NCBI GenBank assembly: GCA_037176885.1 | Contig: JAWWNJ010000220.1 | Location: forward strand, 124,001-188,000 | DNA from: Favolaschia claudopus | Taxonomy: Eukaryota > Basidiomycota > Agaricomycetes > Agaricales > Mycenaceae | Direction: 5' to 3' | Length of the DNA stretch: 64,000 nt | In this document: positions 5,656 to 17,371 of the stretch, piece by piece | Position numbering within the stretch: the first letter of the stretch is position 1 | How the letters are laid out: each line of letters begins with the position of its first letter | The notes under the pieces: model-generated | The model's input: only the letters and a program-made list of their open reading frames with translations | The model's database searches: none | What the model was told of the DNA's origin: nothing | Translations under genes and position numbers: made by a program

Positions 5656-5776
5656 TCGGCGAGCATTGAGCAGGCGTGGTCGGAAATTCTTTGGCGACGT
5701 TACAGTACCTTTCGGGCAATTCCGTTCGGCACAATCGGCATATTCAATTCTGGCTCAGTGGCTAGCTCTTTGAATA

Positions 5777-5832
5777 CCAAGGCCCTCCGGGCACACCTGG
5801 TACCTCTCTCACCAAGGGAGGGGTTGTGAATT
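5777..5832 (+). repeat. Left terminal inverted repeat
   Basis: The outer 13 bases are a perfect inverted match to the right end. Two more blocks (GTACCTCTCTCAC and GGTTGTGAATT) also match, separated in this copy by insertions of about nine or ten bases. TA precedes it at 5775-5776. Confidence 0.8.
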
Positions 5833-6150
5833 GCTCGCAGAATCGAAATTTTTTCTCAACCCCCAAACTAGAACGAGAATTCGTAACCCCCCCCGGGGGG
5901 GGGTTATGAAAGATATGCGACTCAAAACACATTTTACGAGCAACTCGCACGAAAATCCATAACCCCCCCCCGGGGGGGGTTACAAAAAAATTCGACTCAA
6001 AACGCGCTTCACGAAAAACTCGAACGAGAATTCATAACCCCCCCCGGGGGGGGTTACGAAAAATTGCGACTCAAAACACATTTCACGAGCAACTCGCACG
6101 AAAATCCATAACCCCCCCCGGGGGGGGTTACAAAAAATTTGCGACTCAAA
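5833..6150. repeat. Left subterminal array, four GC-palindrome units
   Basis: Four units about 74 bases apart each hold AACCCCCCC(C)GGGGGGG(G)TT, centred near 5894, 5971, 6044 and 6119. Each palindrome is followed by a conserved spacer (GCGACTCAAAA, then a run ending in ACTCG(C/A)ACGA). Each palindrome could form a GC hairpin and contains CCCGGG. Confidence 0.9.
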
Positions 6151-6474
6151 ACGCTTTGCGAGATTGAAGGTTGCAACCGTGCGAAGATTTGGTTTGTTTG
6201 CTTTTGGGGAACATCAACCAACTTGCTCTCACCCATCAACACTGCGTCGCGTTGACGCGTTCGGCGTTCGCCCTCAACATAACGTCGTGGGAGGTGTGAC
6301 TGGACGCGTCGAGAATTCACGGACGTCCGTGAAATCTACAGGGCTCAGTAAGTAATCCAACTTCCTCTCCCGCCTCTGCAGGTCATTGATGTCAGTCTTT
6401 TCTGAAAGGTTTAGCCGCCGTCTGACTCTGACCGCGACGTCGACTGACTACAACGACACGCTGAAACGCGCCTC
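6151..6474. other. Probable 5' region of gene A inside the element
   Basis: No gene is seen in these 324 bases. They lie between the left repeat array and the ATG of gene A and probably include its promoter. Confidence 0.4.
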
Positions 6475-7757
6475 ATGGCGCTGCCGCCGATGCGGCGCCG
6501 GCCCATCCCTCAACTGAGGGCGCCCATCGGACATCCCTTGAGGGCTGCACCTCCTGTTCTGCCTCCCCAACCCGCGCCGTCGCTGCCCCCTCTGTTTCCC
6601 CCCCCCAAAATCCCCTCCGATCCCACGAAGAGCGCCTCGGCCAAACACCCCTCTGATCTTGACAAAGACGACGAGAATCCTGCAAAACAAGACGTGGACT
6701 CTGAAAGCTCGACCAACGACGAGGAAAATACGGACGACGAGGAGGAAAGCACGGAGGACGACGAGGAAAGCGTGGACGACGAGGAAAGCGTGGACGAGGA
6801 TGAAGAAAGTACGGACGACGAGGAGGAAGGTGCATCTCCAGAGCATGCTGTCTCCTCGCCATCCCTCTTTTATGAGGCTCGTGTCTTCCCCGACGAGGAA
6901 CGGATTTGCACGCCATCCAAGCCCGCGACTCCAGCACAACAACGAGACAACTCATTGCACCTAGCTAGAGACGTCGAAACATTACATTCTCCTATTCCAG
7001 CCGGTTTCATACAAGATCCTGATCCCCTTGAAGACGATGGCCGTGGTGACGGTTTGTTCCTGTCTGACTTTGTCACCCATAGCTTCTCATTGAGCGCAGA
7101 GATCCCCTCATCACAAGCCGAAAACGCTCATGCCGGAATGCGCAAACGACTTCAAGAGTTCGCGTACATCCCCCCTCCCCGCCGTTTCTATGTTGATAAA
7201 GGTTCCCTCCTCTACCAAACAAGACAACGTAATCGACGTGGACGAGCGCAGAAACCTCGCGGACCGGCTCCCATCCCTACCACGCGAAACGAGCAGAAGG
7301 CCGCGATGCGTAAGAAGATGGAAACCATTCTCGAGGGTGTCGACTCGGAACATCCCCTGACCCAATCCTACGGCGCCCAGCGCCATGATGCACCTGCAAC
7401 ACAGCCTTTCGGTGCCAGTAAACTTGCAGCGCGCGCGTCAAAATCATTGTTCTACTCCGCTGAACAGTCGCCAACACCGTCGCCAGCTGCTGGACCCAGC
7501 GCCCTCCCCCCGCCTGCTGCCCCCGCTGTAACGAAGCTCAATATGGCTGTCCCTGTCATTTTGAAGCACCCGACAACAACGTCTGTTCGTCGGCCTTTCA
7601 AAGCGCCTTCAAAGGTATGTGCCTTTCTTCAGTACATTCTCTGAGTAACGTGCTGCAGATCGGGCCAGCTCTTTTCCCGATGATGAGCGATGTAATGCAG
7701 CAGCGCAGCAAGCGGAAGAAAAGGAAGACAGAGAGCGGGCCCAGTTCACTTAGTTAA
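6475..7757 (+). CDS. Element gene A: acidic, disordered protein of unknown function
   Basis: This gene has two exons joined by an intron at about 7615-7659, giving roughly 410 residues. The N-terminal ~50 residues are Pro/Arg-rich (MALPPMRRRPIPQLRAPIG). Residues ~60-125 form a long Asp/Glu/Ser tract built of repeats like TDDEEE and SVDDEE. A middle block around residue 235 (YIPPPRRFYVDKGSLLYQ, followed by an Arg-rich RQRNRRGRAQKPRG) looks the most structured. The C-terminus ends in a basic cluster KRKKRK that could be a nuclear signal. No known domain is recognised. Alternating acid and base-rich parts suggest a nuclear or chromatin-binding role, but that is inference. It converges on gene B. 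Confidence 0.65.
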
Positions 7758-7923
7758 ACGGCATGTACATTCTACGCATGGGAAGCTTGTAACGAAAACA
7801 ACGGTTAACGAATAATTGTAATTACCGTACTGTACATTTTGAAAACTTTGTATTGTCTTGACGAATAATTGTGGTCACCGTACTTTACATTCTAAAACTT
7901 CGTATTGTCTGAACTCGTGCCAA

Positions 7924-8517
7924 CTACCCCTCCCGCTGCTTTCCGCGCGCTGTAATAGTGTGAGCTTAACTTGACAAGCAGCCGGTAGTATACCTTTCGT
8001 GGACATGGGTGCGCCTTTAAATTGTAAGCGACAAATCAAATGCGAAGCTGAACTTACCATTGTTCTCAGTTGCATTACCGGCCTTGACTGCACAAACTTT
8101 CAGAGGTGAAGAGAATGCGGTTAAAAGGCCTACCACTGGATTTTTTACGCGCTTTTTTACGCGCCTTTGACCGGGTTTCAGTGTCTTCTGCATCTTGAGC
8201 TCCAAGTTGAGTTGTTATTGACGCGGCACGTCGTTATCTAGCTACCGTCTCCGACAGGCTCGCGTTTTCTTTTCGCCGATGTCCTTTTGCCGTCTGGGTT
8301 CTTCTTCTCATCTGCGACAGGTTAACCGTGCAATGGCGAATGCAGCACACATAGTACCGTCTCGTTTGCTGGAAGGCCTGCCTGATTGACCCTGGGTCAA
8401 TGCGGGAACATGGTAGGTTCCTTCAGCCGGCATGAGGAACTTGTTGTTCTGGATCATCGCGAGATACTCTGGGGTTGGTTGAGGGAATGCGGCCCACTTC
8501 GCGGGGTTGAGGTCCAT
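7924..8517 (-). CDS. Element gene B: small basic protein, paralog of gene E
   Basis: Six exons join into an uninterrupted 118-residue frame: 8517-8358, 8311-8246, 8187-8134, 8087-8058, 8014-7994 and 7949-7924, with all introns GT-AG and 43-58 nt. The N-terminus reads MDLNPAKWAAFPQPTPEYLA followed by MIQNNKFLMPA. The rest is dense in Lys and Arg (KRTSAKRKREP, RSKARKKARKKSS) and looks like a nuclear, nucleic-acid-binding tail. The block around PTPEYL..NN.F recurs in gene E (PSPDYMLENNGYF), which has the same orientation relative to its partner. It shares a 64-bp divergent promoter with gene C. Function is unknown. Confidence 0.65.
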
Positions 8518-8581
8518 AGTGGAAAACGTGACTGTGACCCGTCGCTCATCTACTTTTCCCTTATGTCAGTAACCTGCAACC
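8518..8581. promoter_or_regulatory. Divergent promoter of genes B and C
   Basis: Only 64 bases separate the start codons of B (minus) and C (plus), so transcription signals must be shared. It contains ACGTGACTGTGACC; no clear TATA box is seen. Confidence 0.5.
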
Positions 8582-10066
8582 ATGGACGCACACAATGACC
8601 CAGAAGACTACGCACTTGAGGAGGAAATACTTGATGATGCCGAGGAAGACATTCGCAGACTAAAAGAGCTAGGGACCGAACTATACGCCCTTCTGAGTCG
8701 TCTCGAAGACACTCGCCTGACTACCGAGAAAATTCGCAACCAGGTCGAACATCTCGGGGATGCGGCCACCGACGAAGACTTTGAGTTCATGGCAAGAGCA
8801 GCGGATATCGAGGACGACTATCTGCGGACCTTGGCAGAGTTGCAGGAACTGATAACTGCCGAAGAAAAGAATGAGGTAGAGCCAACTGAGGACGAAAGCG
8901 AAGACCGAGACGACACTGATAATCAAGGAAAAAAGGCAAGTTAGGAGGAGCCGGCTAGAATCTGATGCTTAGCGAACGCAGAAAAACGAAACGACGGAGA
9001 GTGATGAAAAGTGGCAAATAAGCGACACCGTTGTACAGCAGCTCCTCGCCGCTGCACAGGAAGATGCTTTGGATGCAGAAGCTCTCGTGCAAGTCTGCAA
9101 ACAAAAGCGAGGGCGCGACGTCCCAAATCGTTTGATCCAGGCGCTCAAGCGCGCAACGCAAGGTGTTCAGCCCATCAAGGCTAACGACTGGGTAAGTCTC
9201 TTTGCACTGTGCAAAGAAAAGGTCTCAGGTGAATCCAGCTTGAGTTTATCGGCCCGGATGATCTTGGGAGCATGGACGCGATAATACGCCAACAAGTCGA
9301 TGTCCACAATAGCATGGCCAACGGAGAAGCGTCAAACATGGATGCGCTCTGTAGCCTGCATAGAGTAGGTTTCCGTTCTCAGTTCCAGTCCAATGCTCAC
9401 CCGCCACAGGCTCTCAAAACAATTCCAACTGCAGAGAAGGTGGCGGGGTGGCTGACATCAATAACAGCTAAATTGTCAGTGTTGATTTGGGCTCGCCGTT
9501 GGTATACGCACAGCACCCATGACAACGACTTTGCGAGCAAGGCTTACCGGACATATGGGCTGAGAGCGTGGAAGGGAAAGCAATTCTGGAGACTGCTCGA
9601 GGGAGCAAGTGCGATCTTGAAGAAGCAAAAACCCGGAAAAATTTCACGCGCATATCCTAGCGTCGACGAAGTCGGAGCGCAAACTTGTCCAGGGCCGCCT
9701 TGCCTTCCTCAAGGTGTATTCCAACGTGAGTGCTGGTTCCGGCATCATTGACGACAATGCTCAGCTGTAGTTCGGAGCCTGGGTCATCCTTGACCCAACG
9801 TGGGACGTCAACATGTTTATGGGCAAGAACAAAGTTAAAGCGGAGCAATTGGTTCATGGATATCACGGACAACTAGCAAAATCCCGTCATTTGCTGCGAA
9901 CGCTGTGGAGGTGGAGAAGGCAGTGGCGAGCTTGGTGGAAGCCTTGTATACAATAGGGGGTTCGACCCAGAGTCAGGCTCAGTTGTCGGCAGCAATGAAG
10001 CTGGTTAACAATCAGCTATGGGAGTTGCGCTTATGCTCAAGTTTGATCCCGCTGCAGGAGAATTGA
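8582..10066 (+). CDS. Element gene C: ~395-aa helical protein, paralog of gene D
   Basis: Seven exons (8582-8935, 8982-9191, 9239-9364, 9410-9608, 9661-9725, 9771-9814, 9877-10066) give an open frame of 395 residues. The first intron begins with GC, the rest with GT. The first ~110 residues are acidic and strongly heptad-like (coiled coil). Later blocks are WARRWYTHSTHDNDF, FGAWVILDPTW and, near the end, NNQLWELRL. The same three blocks occur in the same order in gene D. Two introns fall at matching places and phase: one about 14 residues before a conserved Trp, the other directly before the G-A-x-V-x-LDP block. No known family is recognised. The last intron is the least certain. A transposition or regulatory role is possible but unproven. 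Confidence 0.65.
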
Positions 10067-10188
10067 TGATCGTTGTCTAGTTACTATTGTGAGCGATGCC
10101 TCCCTTATCCTAATACTCAGTACTCTTCTACACGCCCTCGTTTCTTCATGGCAAGAATTTTGGTTTTCTCAACACCAAACGGCCTGTC

Positions 10189-10670
10189 TCATGTTATTAG
10201 TGATGCACTCCGTTCCTGAGACAATTCTGTACCTGTGCAAGGGACAGGCGCCGTAGCGGCAAGCTTTGAGGCGGTCGGCGCACTCATGCCCTTTATCTTG
10301 GACGGCTTTGTTTTGGACGGAGGTTTTATGGGCTTGTTTTCGCCGGCAATTGTCTTCTTCTTACTGGCAGCTGGTTTTTTCTTGGGGGGAGCGAGTTCTA
10401 CTGCACTGTAGCCGGTGCTCAGCGCAAGCAGACAACCATACCTGGAGTGTTCTGCCGGCTCGAGCCTCCAGCATTTCGTTTCATCTCTCCCTGCGCTTGG
10501 CGCTTTGTAGCCAATGTTTCTAACGCTTGAAGTGAATTGTAGAAATATCCATTGTTTTCGAGCATGTAATCGGGCGAAGGCATGTGCAGGGGCATCTGGC
10601 ACTGGTGAGTGTTGTTCTGCGAGCTGGAGGAAGCTCGCGTTACGGGACGCGACGCGTTGTTGACATGCAT
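10189..10670 (-). CDS. Element gene E: small basic protein, paralog of gene B
   Basis: Two exons (10670-10442 and 10400-10189) give 146 residues with no stop. The N-terminal half is Ser/Asn-rich with PSPDYMLENNGYF, similar in position and wording to gene B. The C-terminal half is Lys/Pro-rich (APPKKKPAASKKK, KPPSKTKPSKIKG), as expected for a nucleic-acid-binding or nuclear tail. The frame stays open further upstream, so a longer N-terminus overlapping gene D is possible. The ATG at 10670 was chosen because it precedes D by 30 bases, mirroring the B/C arrangement. Function unknown. Confidence 0.6.
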
Positions 10671-10700
10671 TTGTGAAGTGCTGGCTTCTTTCTCCCCCTC
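10671..10700. promoter_or_regulatory. Very short divergent interval of genes E and D
   Basis: Thirty bases, mostly pyrimidine on the plus strand, separate the chosen start codons of E and D. The true core promoters probably extend into both 5' regions. Confidence 0.4.
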
Positions 10701-12028
10701 ATGGCCGCCATCCAAGTCTTGAACAAGGTCAACGTATATATCGCAGCCGTTCGCACCCTCCGCCAGGCCCTCAAAGAAGTATCCGACTCGCGGGATGGAG
10801 CCGCTGAACTGCTCGACACATTCGACCTCTACTGCGAGGATAAGGATGATACGGCACACATCCTGAAACTGTTGCATGAATATGACAAGCAGTTGTCCGA
10901 ATTTCTAATACCTTCGTTGCTGCAGGTGCGAAGGGTGTTTGCCCTTTCCGCATACTTACTTAAACTCTCTAGGCTACCTGTTCGCTTAGATACGTCCACC
11001 CACGCCAGCTTCCATCTGCACTCGTCGCCCTCGCTCCAACGCTTGTTAACAACGGACCTGTTCTGCTTGCTCCTTCTATACCTTTTGTTCCCGCAGATGC
11101 TGCGACTGCCCTCCTTGCAGATCTTTTCACGCCACCGCCCGACCTGCGCCTAGCAGCTATCCAGAGGGCTGCGGTGGGCGTTGCGGAGGAAACAGATCCA
11201 TCGTGGGTGTGTCATCCCACCTTCCCTGCCGTTGATGTTGCTCAGAAGATGCAGTGCCCGGTTCTTGCGTCATTCGCCGCTGTCGACGACAATATAATCC
11301 CTCTCCTCGATGATATTGGCAAGCATGCTTCAGCACCAGGTGTTGTCGTGAATCTCATAGCGGCGCTGCGTATGGTACTCTTTTCTAAACCCTACTCCGT
11401 GCTGTGTATTAACTGCTGCGCAGCTCCTTGCTGATGCCCGTCCGCGCGAAAATTGCCTACAACGATGGGTCGACATCATTGTCTTCAAGATCGGGTGCGC
11501 TGTCTATGCCCAGCGGTACCTGTTCCAGTCGCAGAATGATAGCACTTTTGTGGAGGCATTCATCCGCCGACACTGGACGCACGGCAACAACGGCAAGACA
11601 TTCGAGCGGTCGAAGAATCTACAAAAGGAACAAAAGGCAGCTGTAATAGAAGATTTGAGGAGAGATGCACAGCGTGTTGCCAGCCAACATGCACGGGTGC
11701 TTGACGCTTACCGAGAGGTGAGTTCATTGTCGGGTCCGCCGCTACTCTGTTCAAGTTTGACTGTTTATAGCATGGCGCAATTGTCTTTTTAGACCCGAAC
11801 TGGTGCTTCAAGAAACTGGAGGAGAATCGTGTCCAAGGCGCGCGCGCGCAGGATAATACTCTGGCAGACGCAGCGGTTGCGCGACACACGGCCGCAGAGG
11901 CGGCAATCCTCAACATCGTAGGTGCATACTGCAATTCAAATAAGCACCGCTACATCGATCAAGTCTGCGGGCTCTTGTGGGAGCTGCGCCGAAGTTATGC
12001 TGTATTATCTGGGCTTGGAGTTCAGTGA
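10701..12028 (+). CDS. Element gene D: 392-aa helical protein, paralog of gene C
   Basis: Four exons (10701-10925, 10973-11374, 11424-11717, 11771-12028) join into 392 residues. The N-terminal ~70 residues are helical and charged (LRQALKEVSDSRDGAAELLD). The rest contains FIRRHWTHGNNGKTF, a long Arg/Gln-rich helix, HGAIVFLDPNW at the start of the last exon, and CGLLWELRR near the end. These match gene C in order, length (392 against 395) and two intron positions. Some stretches are Ala/Val/Leu-rich helices. I do not recognise any enzyme motif. Together with C it looks like a lineage-specific protein family carried by the element. Confidence 0.65.
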
Positions 12029-12174
12029 TTCTCATGCATGCTGTCTGAACAAGTTGCTATTGGCGCAGTGTATGTGTAAATCGAGTATCATAATTAATCC
12101 TATGCTTTGTGTTGCATGAGAAGCAGCGCACGGAACAAGGGTGCTGCAGGTCAAATTTTTCCTCGCAACGGAGG

Positions 12175-12605
12175 GGTTAAAAAAATCTATAACCCCCCCC
12201 GGGGGGGGTTATGAAAAATCGCGACTCAAAATGCTCTTCGCGAGAAACTGGAACGAAAATCCATAACCCCCCCCGGGGGGGGTTGTGAAAAAATTTCGAT
12301 TCTGCGAGCAACTCGCACAAAATTCATAAACCCCCCCGGGGGCGGTTACGAAAAAATGCGACTCAAAACGTGCTTCAGCAAAAACTCAAACGAAAATTCA
12401 TAAACCCCCCCGGGGGGGGTTGTGAAAAAATTTCGATTCTGCGAGCAACTCGCACAAAATTCATAAACCCCCCCGGGGGGGGTTACGAAAAAATGCGACT
12501 CAAAACGTGCTTCAGCAAAAACTCAAACGAAAATTCATAAACCCCCCCGGGGGGGGTTGTGAAAAAAATGCGACTCAAAACTCGCTTCACGAAAACTGGA
12601 ACGAG
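12175..12605. repeat. Right subterminal array, six GC-palindrome units
   Basis: Six C7-8/G7-8 palindromes are centred near 12200, 12274, 12337, 12411, 12474 and 12548. The spacers carry the same GCGACTCAAAA and ACTCGCACAAAA words, in the same direction as in the left array, so the arrays are direct while the terminal repeats are inverted. A two-unit block has been duplicated (about 12284-12421 and 12422-12558 are nearly identical). The third palindrome has one interrupting C. Confidence 0.9.
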
Positions 12606-12643
12606 AATTCACAACCGTGAGAGAGGTACGCGGAGGGCCTTGG
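12606..12643 (-). repeat. Right terminal inverted repeat
   Basis: It is the inverted copy of the left end without the two small insertions: AATTCACAACC, GTGAGAGAGGTAC, then CGGAGGGCCTTGG. TA follows at 12644-12645. Confidence 0.8.
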
Positions 12644-12898
12644 TATCAGATGTATTATATAATCCGTGATATGAGTTGTGCTCGACTTAACGTTCATTTG
12701 GTTTGGAGACCTGGACCTAGAACGGTACCAGGAATGCCTCTTTCCTCGCGCTTCCTTGTGAGGACGTTGGGAATATGTTCATACTATGCAGGATTCAACT
12801 CCATTGCACCCATAAACAGCAACTCGTTCAAATTGAAATTATACAACAGGCGAAATTTTCAAGTATACAAAATCCGCTGCGCGCCGACAAGGGCAGCT

Positions 12899-14975: not shown

Positions 14976-15196
14976 TGTTGACTCGAAGGAGTGCAAAAAC
15001 TCCGTCTGAGCATCGCCAGTGACTTCCTGCTTATATGTTGTAGAGACTTGGTCAGGAGGACCTCGAAATGCAAGGAAGACGGTGCATGTGGTGGAACGAC
15101 GGAAGAACTGGTTGAGAGCGGCAGCCGGAGCCGATCTAATCTAATCTCTTGAGCGTGCGAATTCTGAAAACTTTCCTTTCTTGGCCACCAAATTTC

Positions 15197-17371
15197 ATGG
15201 AGGCTTTCCAGTTGCTCTCTCGAGGCGGCGCAAAGTTCGATAAGAGACGGTTTCAAAAAGATGTTCATCTGTTCTCTGTATGCCATCTCGCAGTTCTATT
15301 CTCAATCGCTCATCTCACACTCCAGAAAGCGCCCGGCAAAACTCAGACCCCTTCAAAAGCAAACCTTGCGGATGGGGAATTACCCAAAGAACTAGATTAT
15401 TTCAAATACGCTGCAGGTGGTTCAGGAAAGCGGAAGACGGAGGGTGGTGGTCCGGATGTTGTGAAGAAACGGAAGGTCAGCGAAACAGAAGACGAACCTG
15501 ACTCGGCTTCAGAGGATCTAGAAGACAATGAGGCAGAAGACGCGTCGCAAAGACCACGACAGCGCATTGTTGCAAAGGGCTCAAAAGTTCCAGCGCATGC
15601 CGACACGTTCACCGAGTTAGCTGAACGATACCAAATGTCCTCTCTTCTGTTGTCAAATCTTAATCGTCACGGCTACATTCATCCGACTGGAATCCAGTCA
15701 TATGGAATTCCAATACTGCTGGAGGTAATAAGAGGGCTCTGTTTAGCTATATATATATGCTCAATTCTTTTCAAGTCCCGCGACCTGGCCGCCATTTCGC
15801 CCACAGGAACGGGCAAAACACTTTCCTATCTCCTCCCTGTCATGGCCTCCCTCGGTGCCCCCTCTTCCAGCTCTAATAGCGATGCAGGAGCAGGAGTCAG
15901 AGCCATTGTCGTTGCCCCCACCCGGGAACTCGCACATCAAATCCACAACGAATGTCTGAAACTCGCTGAAGGTCGTAAATGGCGGATTGTTCTTTTCAGT
16001 AAGGCTTCCGCCGCTACGTTGGCGGAAAAAGCCACCAGGGACAAAGTTGGTGAGCCCTAGTTTTTTATCTTGCATTTGCAATATCATTGACATTACTCAA
16101 AAGACATCATCATAACCACACCGCTTCGATTAGTAGCGTCGCTTCGATCCGGCAGTCTCGAACTGGACAAGTGAGTGAGAGCTTTGACCATATGTGCAGC
16201 AGCCTGAATCGTGAATCAACCTCAGTGTGCGCCATCTGATCCTTGATGAAGCAGATCGAATGCTAGACTCGGAATTTTTTCCTCAAGTTGAGGAAATTCT
16301 GGCTGCTTGTACCCATCCAAGTATACAAAAGGCTGTATTTAGTGCAACCCTTCCCGCCGGGGCGGAGAAAATGGCGATGCAAATGCTGCAAGATCCAATA
16401 CGTGTGGTTGTTGGCCTCAAGTGCGTAAATGGGTGTAAACTCTGATCTGTCCACTCATCTCCATATCCACAGAGATACACCTCTTCCCCTCATATCTCAA
16501 TCTTTGACCTACGTGGCCGATGACCCCTCGAAACTACCCAGCCTTTTAACCTACTTCGCGCAACCATATAACCCCCCAGTTCTCATATTCACCTCCTCTC
16601 AACCTCGAGCTACTTCACTGGCGCAAGAGCTCATACTCAATGGCGTATCCAATGTTGACTGCCTTCATGCTGGTATGACGAAGAAAGAGCGAGAAGATGC
16701 CGTGAGTCGAATGCGAAAGGGTGAGAGCTGGGTTATGGTCAGCACCGAGGTCATGGCACGAGGAATGGATTTTAAAGGTAGGCAGACTGCAGTCTCTCCC
16801 TCCCCTTGTTGGTGATGGGTAGTCCAGGGATTCGCGAGGTAATCAACTACGATTTCCCTACCAGCGTACAAAGCTACGTCCATCGTATCGGTGTGTCGGT
16901 TCCTTTATCCCTTCATCGATGTTTTGCTCACAATGGTTTAGGTCGCACAGGACGGGCGGGTCGTGAAGGCAAGGCGGTGACCTACTTCACCGACGATGAC
17001 GCTCCTTTCCTCAAAGCGTTTGTGGCCTCGCCAGTTCAACTGAGATTGGTGTTGACAACTCCAACAGCATTGCCAACGTTCTCCTGCAATCCGGTTCCAC
17101 GGTGCCAGAATGGATTCTGAAGCTGCCAAAACCCTCCAAGTTGAAGCGAAAGCAGATGGGTAAGGTGAAGAGGGCAGAGACTGTCAATCCTGCTCGGAGG
17201 ATAGGAAGAAACGACGCCATCAAGAAGAGGCAAGCATATTTTCTTGGTTCGGGTCCTACCCTTGCTCACTCTTTGGTTTTTAGGGACATGGTCGCTGGCT
17301 CGAAACGACGAATTGCTCGAGGGGCAGGTCCAATACCTCAAAGTGAAAGTACTGGGGAGGTATCTTCGTAG
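15197..17371 (+). CDS. ROK1: ATP-dependent RNA helicase ROK1 (DDX52)
   Basis: This DEAD-box helicase acts in 18S rRNA processing and 40S assembly in the nucleolus. The start ATG (15197) gives [19 protein letters not shown], which matches the Rok1 N-terminus. Motifs in order: a Q motif region ([14 protein letters not shown]), motif I SPTGTGKT after an intron ending at ~15775, PTRELA, TTPLR, DEAD in [11 protein letters not shown] (~16238), SATLPAG, a helicase C-terminal part with [34 protein letters not shown], and the Rok1-typical end [18 protein letters not shown] followed by a basic tail. The last intron starts with GC at 17230. The small shifted frames between exons are all explained by 45-60-nt introns. 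Confidence 0.95.

Follow-up and report, generated by a model that had tools for sequence, protein, structure and literature searches.

Among the rolling-circle elements described so far, helpo1.3 of Pleurotus ostreatus comprises a single 12.2-kb copy, in which four genes have been captured, and many copies of 1.5 kb (PMC4289320). Viral- or nuclease-like domains are present in three of these genes, the fourth being species-specific, and none of the four has a copy outside helitrons (PMC4289320). In HINEs, palindromic subterminal inverted repeats are described at 2-4 nt from the 5′ end, along with a 3′ palindrome and, in some elements, tandem repeats (PMC4067079). Here, we describe a locus of the wood-decay mushroom Favolaschia claudopus (Mycenaceae) in a window of 64,000 nucleotides, the whole stretch of DNA that was analysed (positions 124001-188000 of contig C220). 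The locus holds five genes, designated A to E, among which the small genes B and E face the large genes C and D, respectively. Our main finding is a Helitron-like element with gene cargo: the two gene pairs are probably carried by a non-autonomous Helitron-like (rolling-circle) transposable element.

Insertion, termini and family of copies

Genes A, B/C and E/D all lie inside a 6,960-bp insertion (Table 1). Two related loci (L009 and L010) align with the window as far as 5749 and then again from 12735 onward, and the block between is therefore an insertion. Its borders, 5775 and 12734, follow from the alignment of family copies, and the host bases beside it are A at 5774 and T at 12735. The host flanks occur in three copies (C220, C15 and C1; 90-94% identical), more than two haplotypes would give. 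In the 265-Mb draft genome of F. claudopus, duplicated BUSCO genes are reported to make up 86.8% (PMC10905254).

Read on the minus strand, the element begins with TTCCTGGTACC and finishes with GGTACCAGG-TGT-GCCCGGAGGGC-CTTGGTA, and family-wide it sits between A (or G) and T. The subterminal inverted repeats CCTGGTACC/GGTACCAGG are placed asymmetrically, 2 nt from the 5′ terminus and 21 nt from the 3′ terminus. The predicted fold of the 5′ end has an energy of -5.7 kcal/mol (z -3.3) and that of the 3′ end -5.3 kcal/mol (z -1.2); the inner damaged 3′-type end reaches -0.2 kcal/mol, compared with -5.3 kcal/mol for the intact one. Two arrays lie next to the ends, and their 74-bp tandem units each contain a near-perfect C8G8-type palindrome. 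Similar units are present in short copies of the same subfamily. The arrays are possibly binding or structure-forming arrays.

These ends define a family in the genome, which was searched over 264.6 Mb in 460 contigs. The sequence TACCAAGGCCCTCCG occurs 45 times exactly and 69 times with at most one mismatch (control 18). A generalised 3′ end gave 66 exact matches (control 0) and, among the matches listed, at least 114 with up to three mismatches (control 2); the hairpin motif GCCCTCCGGGC is kept in the 66 exact 3′ ends (control 0). For the 5′ end, a 25-mer was found 22 times exactly and 25 times with up to three mismatches (control 0), and its 13-base form 95 times (control 3).

Twenty-nine both-ended copies were collected from fetched loci with ends fitting the search expressions, a sample that leaves out degenerate copies. 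The left end is preceded by A in all 29, and the right end is followed by T in 19, by C in nine and by A in one, the T side thus being a preference. None of the 29 shares four or more flank bases as a target duplication would. Sharing of three bases was seen in none at the exact border and in one at each of two shifted registers, and loose flank matching was no better than with shuffled partners (57-296 of 500 shuffles reached the observed value, over five lengths). Twenty copies measure 347-790 bp and the others 0.9-7.0 kb. The layout of the window copy, but without genes, is also seen in three short copies (L018, L038 and L075). Another copy, on C24 (C24:198581-203181; L072 3646-5640, minus strand), carries a reverse-transcriptase frame (RVT_1, E = 2.8e-9), which starts beside the 5′ end sequence and is apparently 5′-truncated. 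Therefore, the cargo varies within the family.

The absence of target-site duplication, the insertion between A and T, the hairpin near the 3′ end and the asymmetric subterminal inverted repeats are all Helitron-like features.

Table 1 Features of the F. claudopus element and of related A/D fusions. Positions refer to the window; for the fusions, the two positions that meet are given. aa: amino acids.
Feature	Position	Strand	Description
Whole mobile element	5775..12734	-	6,960 bp; 5′ end 12734, 3′ end 5775 (outer orientation); from recurrent ends, empty sites and flanks of 29 copies
3′ end	5775..5804	-	Subterminal repeat GGTACCAGG and hairpin GCCC-GGA-GGGC, 7 nt from terminus GGTA (followed by T)
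Left subterminal array	5866..6154	.	74/149-bp units with C8G8-type palindromes; one unit folded, z -3.7
Gene A	6475..7757	+	Exons 6475-7614, 7659-7757; 412 aa; acidic, Pro-rich; no known domain; predicted splice
Gene B	8238..8517	-	Exons 8517-8391, 8311-8238; 66 aa; Lys/Arg-rich exon 2; predicted splice model
Gene C	8582..10067	+	R3P38DRAFT_3144186, hypothetical protein, 395 aa; seven exons (8582-8935, 8982-9191, 9239-9364, 9410-9567, 9623-9725, 9771-9851, 9911-10067); public model reproduced
Gene E	10189..10670	-	Exons 10670-10442, 10400-10189; 146 aa; Lys-rich exon 2; predicted splice model
Gene D	10582..12028	+	R3P38DRAFT_3144188, hypothetical protein, 391 aa, paralogue of C; public exons 10582-10604, 10679-10925, 10973-11206, 11255-11374, 11424-11717, 11771-12028; public model reproduced
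Right subterminal array	12182..12611	.	Units similar to left array
Inner damaged 3′-type end	12625..12646	+	TACCAAGGCCCTCCG on minus strand at 12631-12645; hairpin absent
5′ end	12702..12734	-	TTCCTGGTACCGTTCTAGGTCCAGGTCTCCAAA; hairpin 2 nt from terminus
A/D fusion	6738/11049		C23; probably the P0002 gene
A/D fusion	6524/11275		C31, C243
A/D fusion	6555/11234		C273
A/D fusion	6509/11914		C197
A/D fusion	6314/11830		C57, C10

Genes carried by the element

The first intron of gene C has a GC donor. A gene C broken by frameshifts was considered and rejected, as the public model splices through. For gene D, a simpler model starting at 10701 has four exons and gives 392 aa, the length in the first-pass annotation of this DNA; the public model adds an intron (11207-11254) and an upstream exon to it.

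That annotation regarded C and D as duplicates of each other, and the comparison bears this out. Their Smith-Waterman score is 104 (shuffled mean 37.3, standard deviation 5.3), and with BLOSUM45 it is 151 (shuffled mean 51.6); in both cases, none of 2000 shuffles reached the observed score. With D as the tblastn query, the C region was recovered in two pieces (E = 2e-5), and the C-terminal parts have 51 identities in 227 aligned columns. Two introns had been proposed at the same place and in phase 0. Place and phase were right, and the number is three: introns fall in the identical alignment columns 242, 284 and 382, all in phase 0 (after DPSW/ANDW, AALRM/SLHR and AYRE/VYSN). Under random placement over 681 nucleotide positions, the chance of three coinciding introns among five is about 2e-7. 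The D intron after SLLQ (column 155) is not aligned with a C intron (column 132), and gene C has two further introns that have no partner in D. Because the similarity goes beyond that of shuffled sequences and intron positions are common to both, C and D are true paralogues. No Pfam or NCBIfam family was found above cut-off in A, C, D or E, nor any Pfam family in B. A sequence search of the Protein Data Bank (PDB) with a C/D profile had a best E value of 0.26, and an AlphaFold2 model of D from three sequences had a predicted local distance difference test (pLDDT) score of 43.9.

The same annotation treated the small genes as duplicates too. As to layout, this stands: both are small, Lys/Arg-rich, on the minus strand and face a large gene. 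The divergent intervals were also given correctly, with 64 bp between B and C (8518-8581; ATGs at 8517 and 8582) and 30 bp between E and D (10671-10700; ATGs at 10670 and 10701), while in the public model D begins within E, on the opposite strand. As to sequence, the case for B/E paralogy is weak, the similarity being at the edge of chance. The exon 1 score was reached by 15 of 2000 shuffles and the whole-protein score by 190 of 2000; for a B-like remnant on contig C15 compared with E, the figure was 1469 of 2000. That B and E are non-homologous, being either unrelated short Lys-rich frames facing C and D by chance or antisense artefacts, is a possibility to be taken seriously, if not the one we prefer. 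The whole-protein comparison agrees with it, as does the overlap of E with the first exon of the public D model; the scarcity of shuffles matching the exon 1 block speaks against it, as does the predicted structure common to both genes, an intron in phase 1 with a Lys-rich exon after it.

Relatives and history of the cargo

Proteins A, C and D were each compared with 5.8 billion proteins, about 8000 candidates being scored for each. Matches were confined to F. claudopus: D matched itself and the protein P0002 (R3P38DRAFT_2919744), A matched P0002, and C matched itself alone. No relatives of A, C or D were found outside this species by this search, which requires shared 5-residue words and may overlook distant relatives, the product of gene A moreover being of low complexity. 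The start of P0002 resembles gene A, whose N-terminal part recurs there, and its end resembles D, which hints that the genes belong to one repeated unit.

At the DNA level, the stretch 6200-10070 has at least 39 other matches, mostly short and within 6201-6343 (40 candidates scored). The first-pass annotation had named single homologues elsewhere as evidence against a kept pair. The findings go halfway towards this: 19 of the 20 other stretches matching the E/D region begin at 10979 or later, as 3′ pieces that lack the intact pair, and protein C has no place in the genome beyond its own locus (five scored candidates). The intact pair was seen in one copy only and thus gives no evidence of long joint maintenance.

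At seven loci (C23, C31, C243, C273, C197, C57 and C10), genes A and D are fused: the beginning of A is followed by the 3′ portion of D, at a spacing of -4 to +7 bp (Table 1). Family ends lie beside the fusions at C31, C243 and C197. Judging from coordinates, a 3′ end also lies beside the 3′ end of D at C243, at C197 and at two loci on C62. The region 6739-10978 is represented elsewhere by two remnants only. The one on C15 contains part of exon 1 of B and pieces of D exon 1, and the one on C42 contains the E/D promoter together with D exon 1, as well as fragments of C and B. We favour an order of events in which a full unit with A, B/C and E/D would have come first and deletion derivatives later. 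An A-D fusion of the P0002 type as the ancestor appears less likely, because D exon 1 is absent from P0002 yet recurs on C15 and C42. Such an ancestor retains some probability, as all seven fusions lack the middle region.

The copy on C31 (L066 2300-3400) is a mosaic relative to the window, with 78-84% identity in D exons 2-3 and 94-98% from intron 3 onward. Such a change of identity inside one gene is as expected after gene conversion or template switching between copies. Over the 127 codons of exons 2-3, the nonsynonymous and synonymous divergences (dN and dS) between D and this copy are 0.18 and 0.39. Amino-acid changes number 39, where 48.1 are expected (10 of 2000 simulations had as few), and stop codons are absent, where 2.3 are expected (159 of 2000 simulations had none). 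Exon 4 has four nucleotide and two amino-acid differences and is little informative. This one comparison points to mild purifying selection on part of D, suggesting that this part was translated for some time.

Search for an autonomous partner

No Rep/helicase was found inside 5775-12734. In the F. claudopus genome, the Rep domain (PF14214) has at least 167 matches (150 of 587 candidates scored), and it has none in 14 control genomes. One Rep at C81:82828 (plus strand) lies 3.3 kb inside a family 5′ end at C81:79533, and no other lies within 30 kb of an end among the matches listed. The Rep-domain open frame in C81:79533-126000 has 1481 aa, and two loose 3′ ends are 35 and 46 kb away. This region is a possible autonomous partner, and the proximity could be due to chance. 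A pair of ends 11.6 kb apart on C44 was set aside as an autonomous copy, since eight of its frames, when tested, had no Pfam match above cut-off and further ends lie inside and beside it. The surrounding stretch, C44:522501-536000 (L070/L071), has several family ends within 13 kb and long frames that lack known domains.

Near the insertion, the window has a DEAD-box helicase frame at 15149-16060 on the plus strand (Pfam E = 1.5e-14), an ordinary host gene. The Rfam search gave no matches, and no tRNA was found.

Alternative explanations for the element

Several observations weigh against a Helitron-like assignment. Canonical Helitrons have TC/CTRR termini, but the ends here are TTCC and GGTA or TGAA-like; Helentrons have a TT target, but the target here is A^T or A^C. 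Therefore, we file the family under neither Helitron1 nor Helentron. The 3′ hairpin alone is not clearly better than shuffled sequences, 29 of 200 of which fold as well. In a comparison made by eye among the matches listed, no autonomous element with these ends was found, and about 0.15 cases of a Rep near a 5′ end are expected by chance. No family end was seen at the fusions on C23, C273, C57 and C10 among the matches listed. At the window copy, the empty site is not clean: identity between the flanks is 90-94%, and CTCTTT is found to the left and right of the insertion, which makes a target duplication at this copy alone conceivable. A duplication of 6-9 bp there was considered and discarded, being unrepeated in the other both-ended copies.

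It is unlikely that the family consists of cut-and-paste DNA transposons with terminal inverted repeats (TIRs) and an unrecognised transposase of its own among A, C and D. The window copy does have the identical 16-bp inverted ATACCAAGGCCCTCCG at 5774-5789 and 12631-12646, together with further inverted blocks, and besides A, the only large genes are C and D, D being the part most often found elsewhere. Ac/Ds has fusion and deletion derivatives, a likeness that counts for this explanation. However, the insertion extends past the inner inverted copy to its border at 12734, and the two outer ends do not match as inverted repeats. None of the 29 copies has a target duplication, and genes A-E contain no transposase family (Pfam and NCBIfam; B by Pfam). 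A transposon bounded by the 16-bp repeat was therefore dropped, the outer border and the lack of duplications deciding the matter.

Just as improbable is movement of the family by a tyrosine-recombinase (Crypton-like) element or another class that makes no target duplication. The missing duplication and the short recurrent target would suit such an element, whereas A^T insertion and the subterminal inverted repeats with a hairpin next to the 3′ end are Helitron-like traits. That A-E are tandemly duplicated host genes in an ordinary locus with unrelated repeats around them is hardly credible, in spite of the conserved C/D introns and the mild constraint on part of D, since the whole block is absent from two related loci, pieces of A and D lie beside family ends at C31, C243 and C197 and pieces of D at two C62 loci, and no relative of A, C or D was found outside F. 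claudopus.

The gene pairs might also be thought to move the element, and the first-pass annotation had offered a transposase with an accessory DNA-binding protein. This is not supported: in C and D, no family of Pfam or NCBIfam is found above cut-off, and of the 29 both-ended copies, 20 are just 347-790 bp long, so these copies spread without C/D in cis. It would be a long shot to see in the divergent small/large pairs a two-part persistence function (e.g. killer-and-protector or anti-silencing) that was duplicated and diverged, with short copies free-riding.

Proposed mechanism

For a Helitron-like element, the following course may be proposed. A Rep/helicase made elsewhere would nick the 5′ end, and rolling-circle replication would peel off a strand up to the 3′ hairpin; this strand would be joined into a new site. 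In the past, genes A-E may have been acquired or put together by the element, and one small/large divergent pair is presumably a copy of the other. Deletions would then have given the shorter derivatives.

In the window copy, A to D are followed on the plus strand by the array and the 3′-type end that lacks a hairpin (12625-12646). On C31, the same cassette is in sense orientation, with the 3′ end beside D and the 5′ end beside A. The window copy can be read as composite, an inner unit with a damaged 3′ hairpin enclosed by ends of opposite orientation. This form might have arisen if replication missed the stop at the damaged hairpin and ran on into a second element of opposite orientation.

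Significance

Many genes in mushroom genomes have no known relatives, and where they came from is often hard to tell. The present case links genes of this sort, which are spliced and of which one is mildly constrained, to a mobile element that has both empty sites and a series of deletion derivatives, so that their birth, duplication and loss can be traced stepwise. The end signature can be used to seek gene-carrying rolling-circle elements in the large genomes of Mycenaceae.

Comparison with known systems

No paper on the Favolaschia family was found in searches of the open-access literature. By comparison with described elements, its termini resemble those of non-autonomous Helitron2/Helentron-type elements, while its A-T target is the same as that of canonical Helitrons. 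Subterminal inverted repeats near the 5′ end, a 3′ palindrome and tandem repeats are common to it and to the Helentron/HINE (DINE-1-like) group as described (PMC4067079). However, the target here is A^T and not TT, the 3′ repeat lies 21 nt from the end and not 38-60 nt as given for that group, and an endonuclease-bearing partner was not found here.

FoHeli of Fusarium oxysporum, a Helitron2-type element, is likewise fungal, with asymmetric terminal inverted repeats and non-autonomous copies, and FoHeli1 and 2 are described with hairpins at both ends, as here (PMC5148889). In contrast, copies with the transposase gene are known there, the ends start with TCAG or TGCCT, and the reported target preference is another (PMC5148889).

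The likeness to helpo1.3, as that element has been described, extends to the Agaricomycete host, a long gene-bearing copy alongside many short ones, internal inverted repeats with a satellite, insertion between A and T and a subterminal hairpin. Unlike the Favolaschia family, with its Helitron2/HINE-type ends and no autonomous relative tied to it, helpo1.3 is reported to have T[C/G]/CTRR ends and identified autonomous relatives. In the Favolaschia cargo, no domain is recognised, and a divergent gene pair is present in duplicate, with introns conserved. By analogy, the Favolaschia element is a variant of the helpo1.3-like case, with another end type, another lineage and another cargo.

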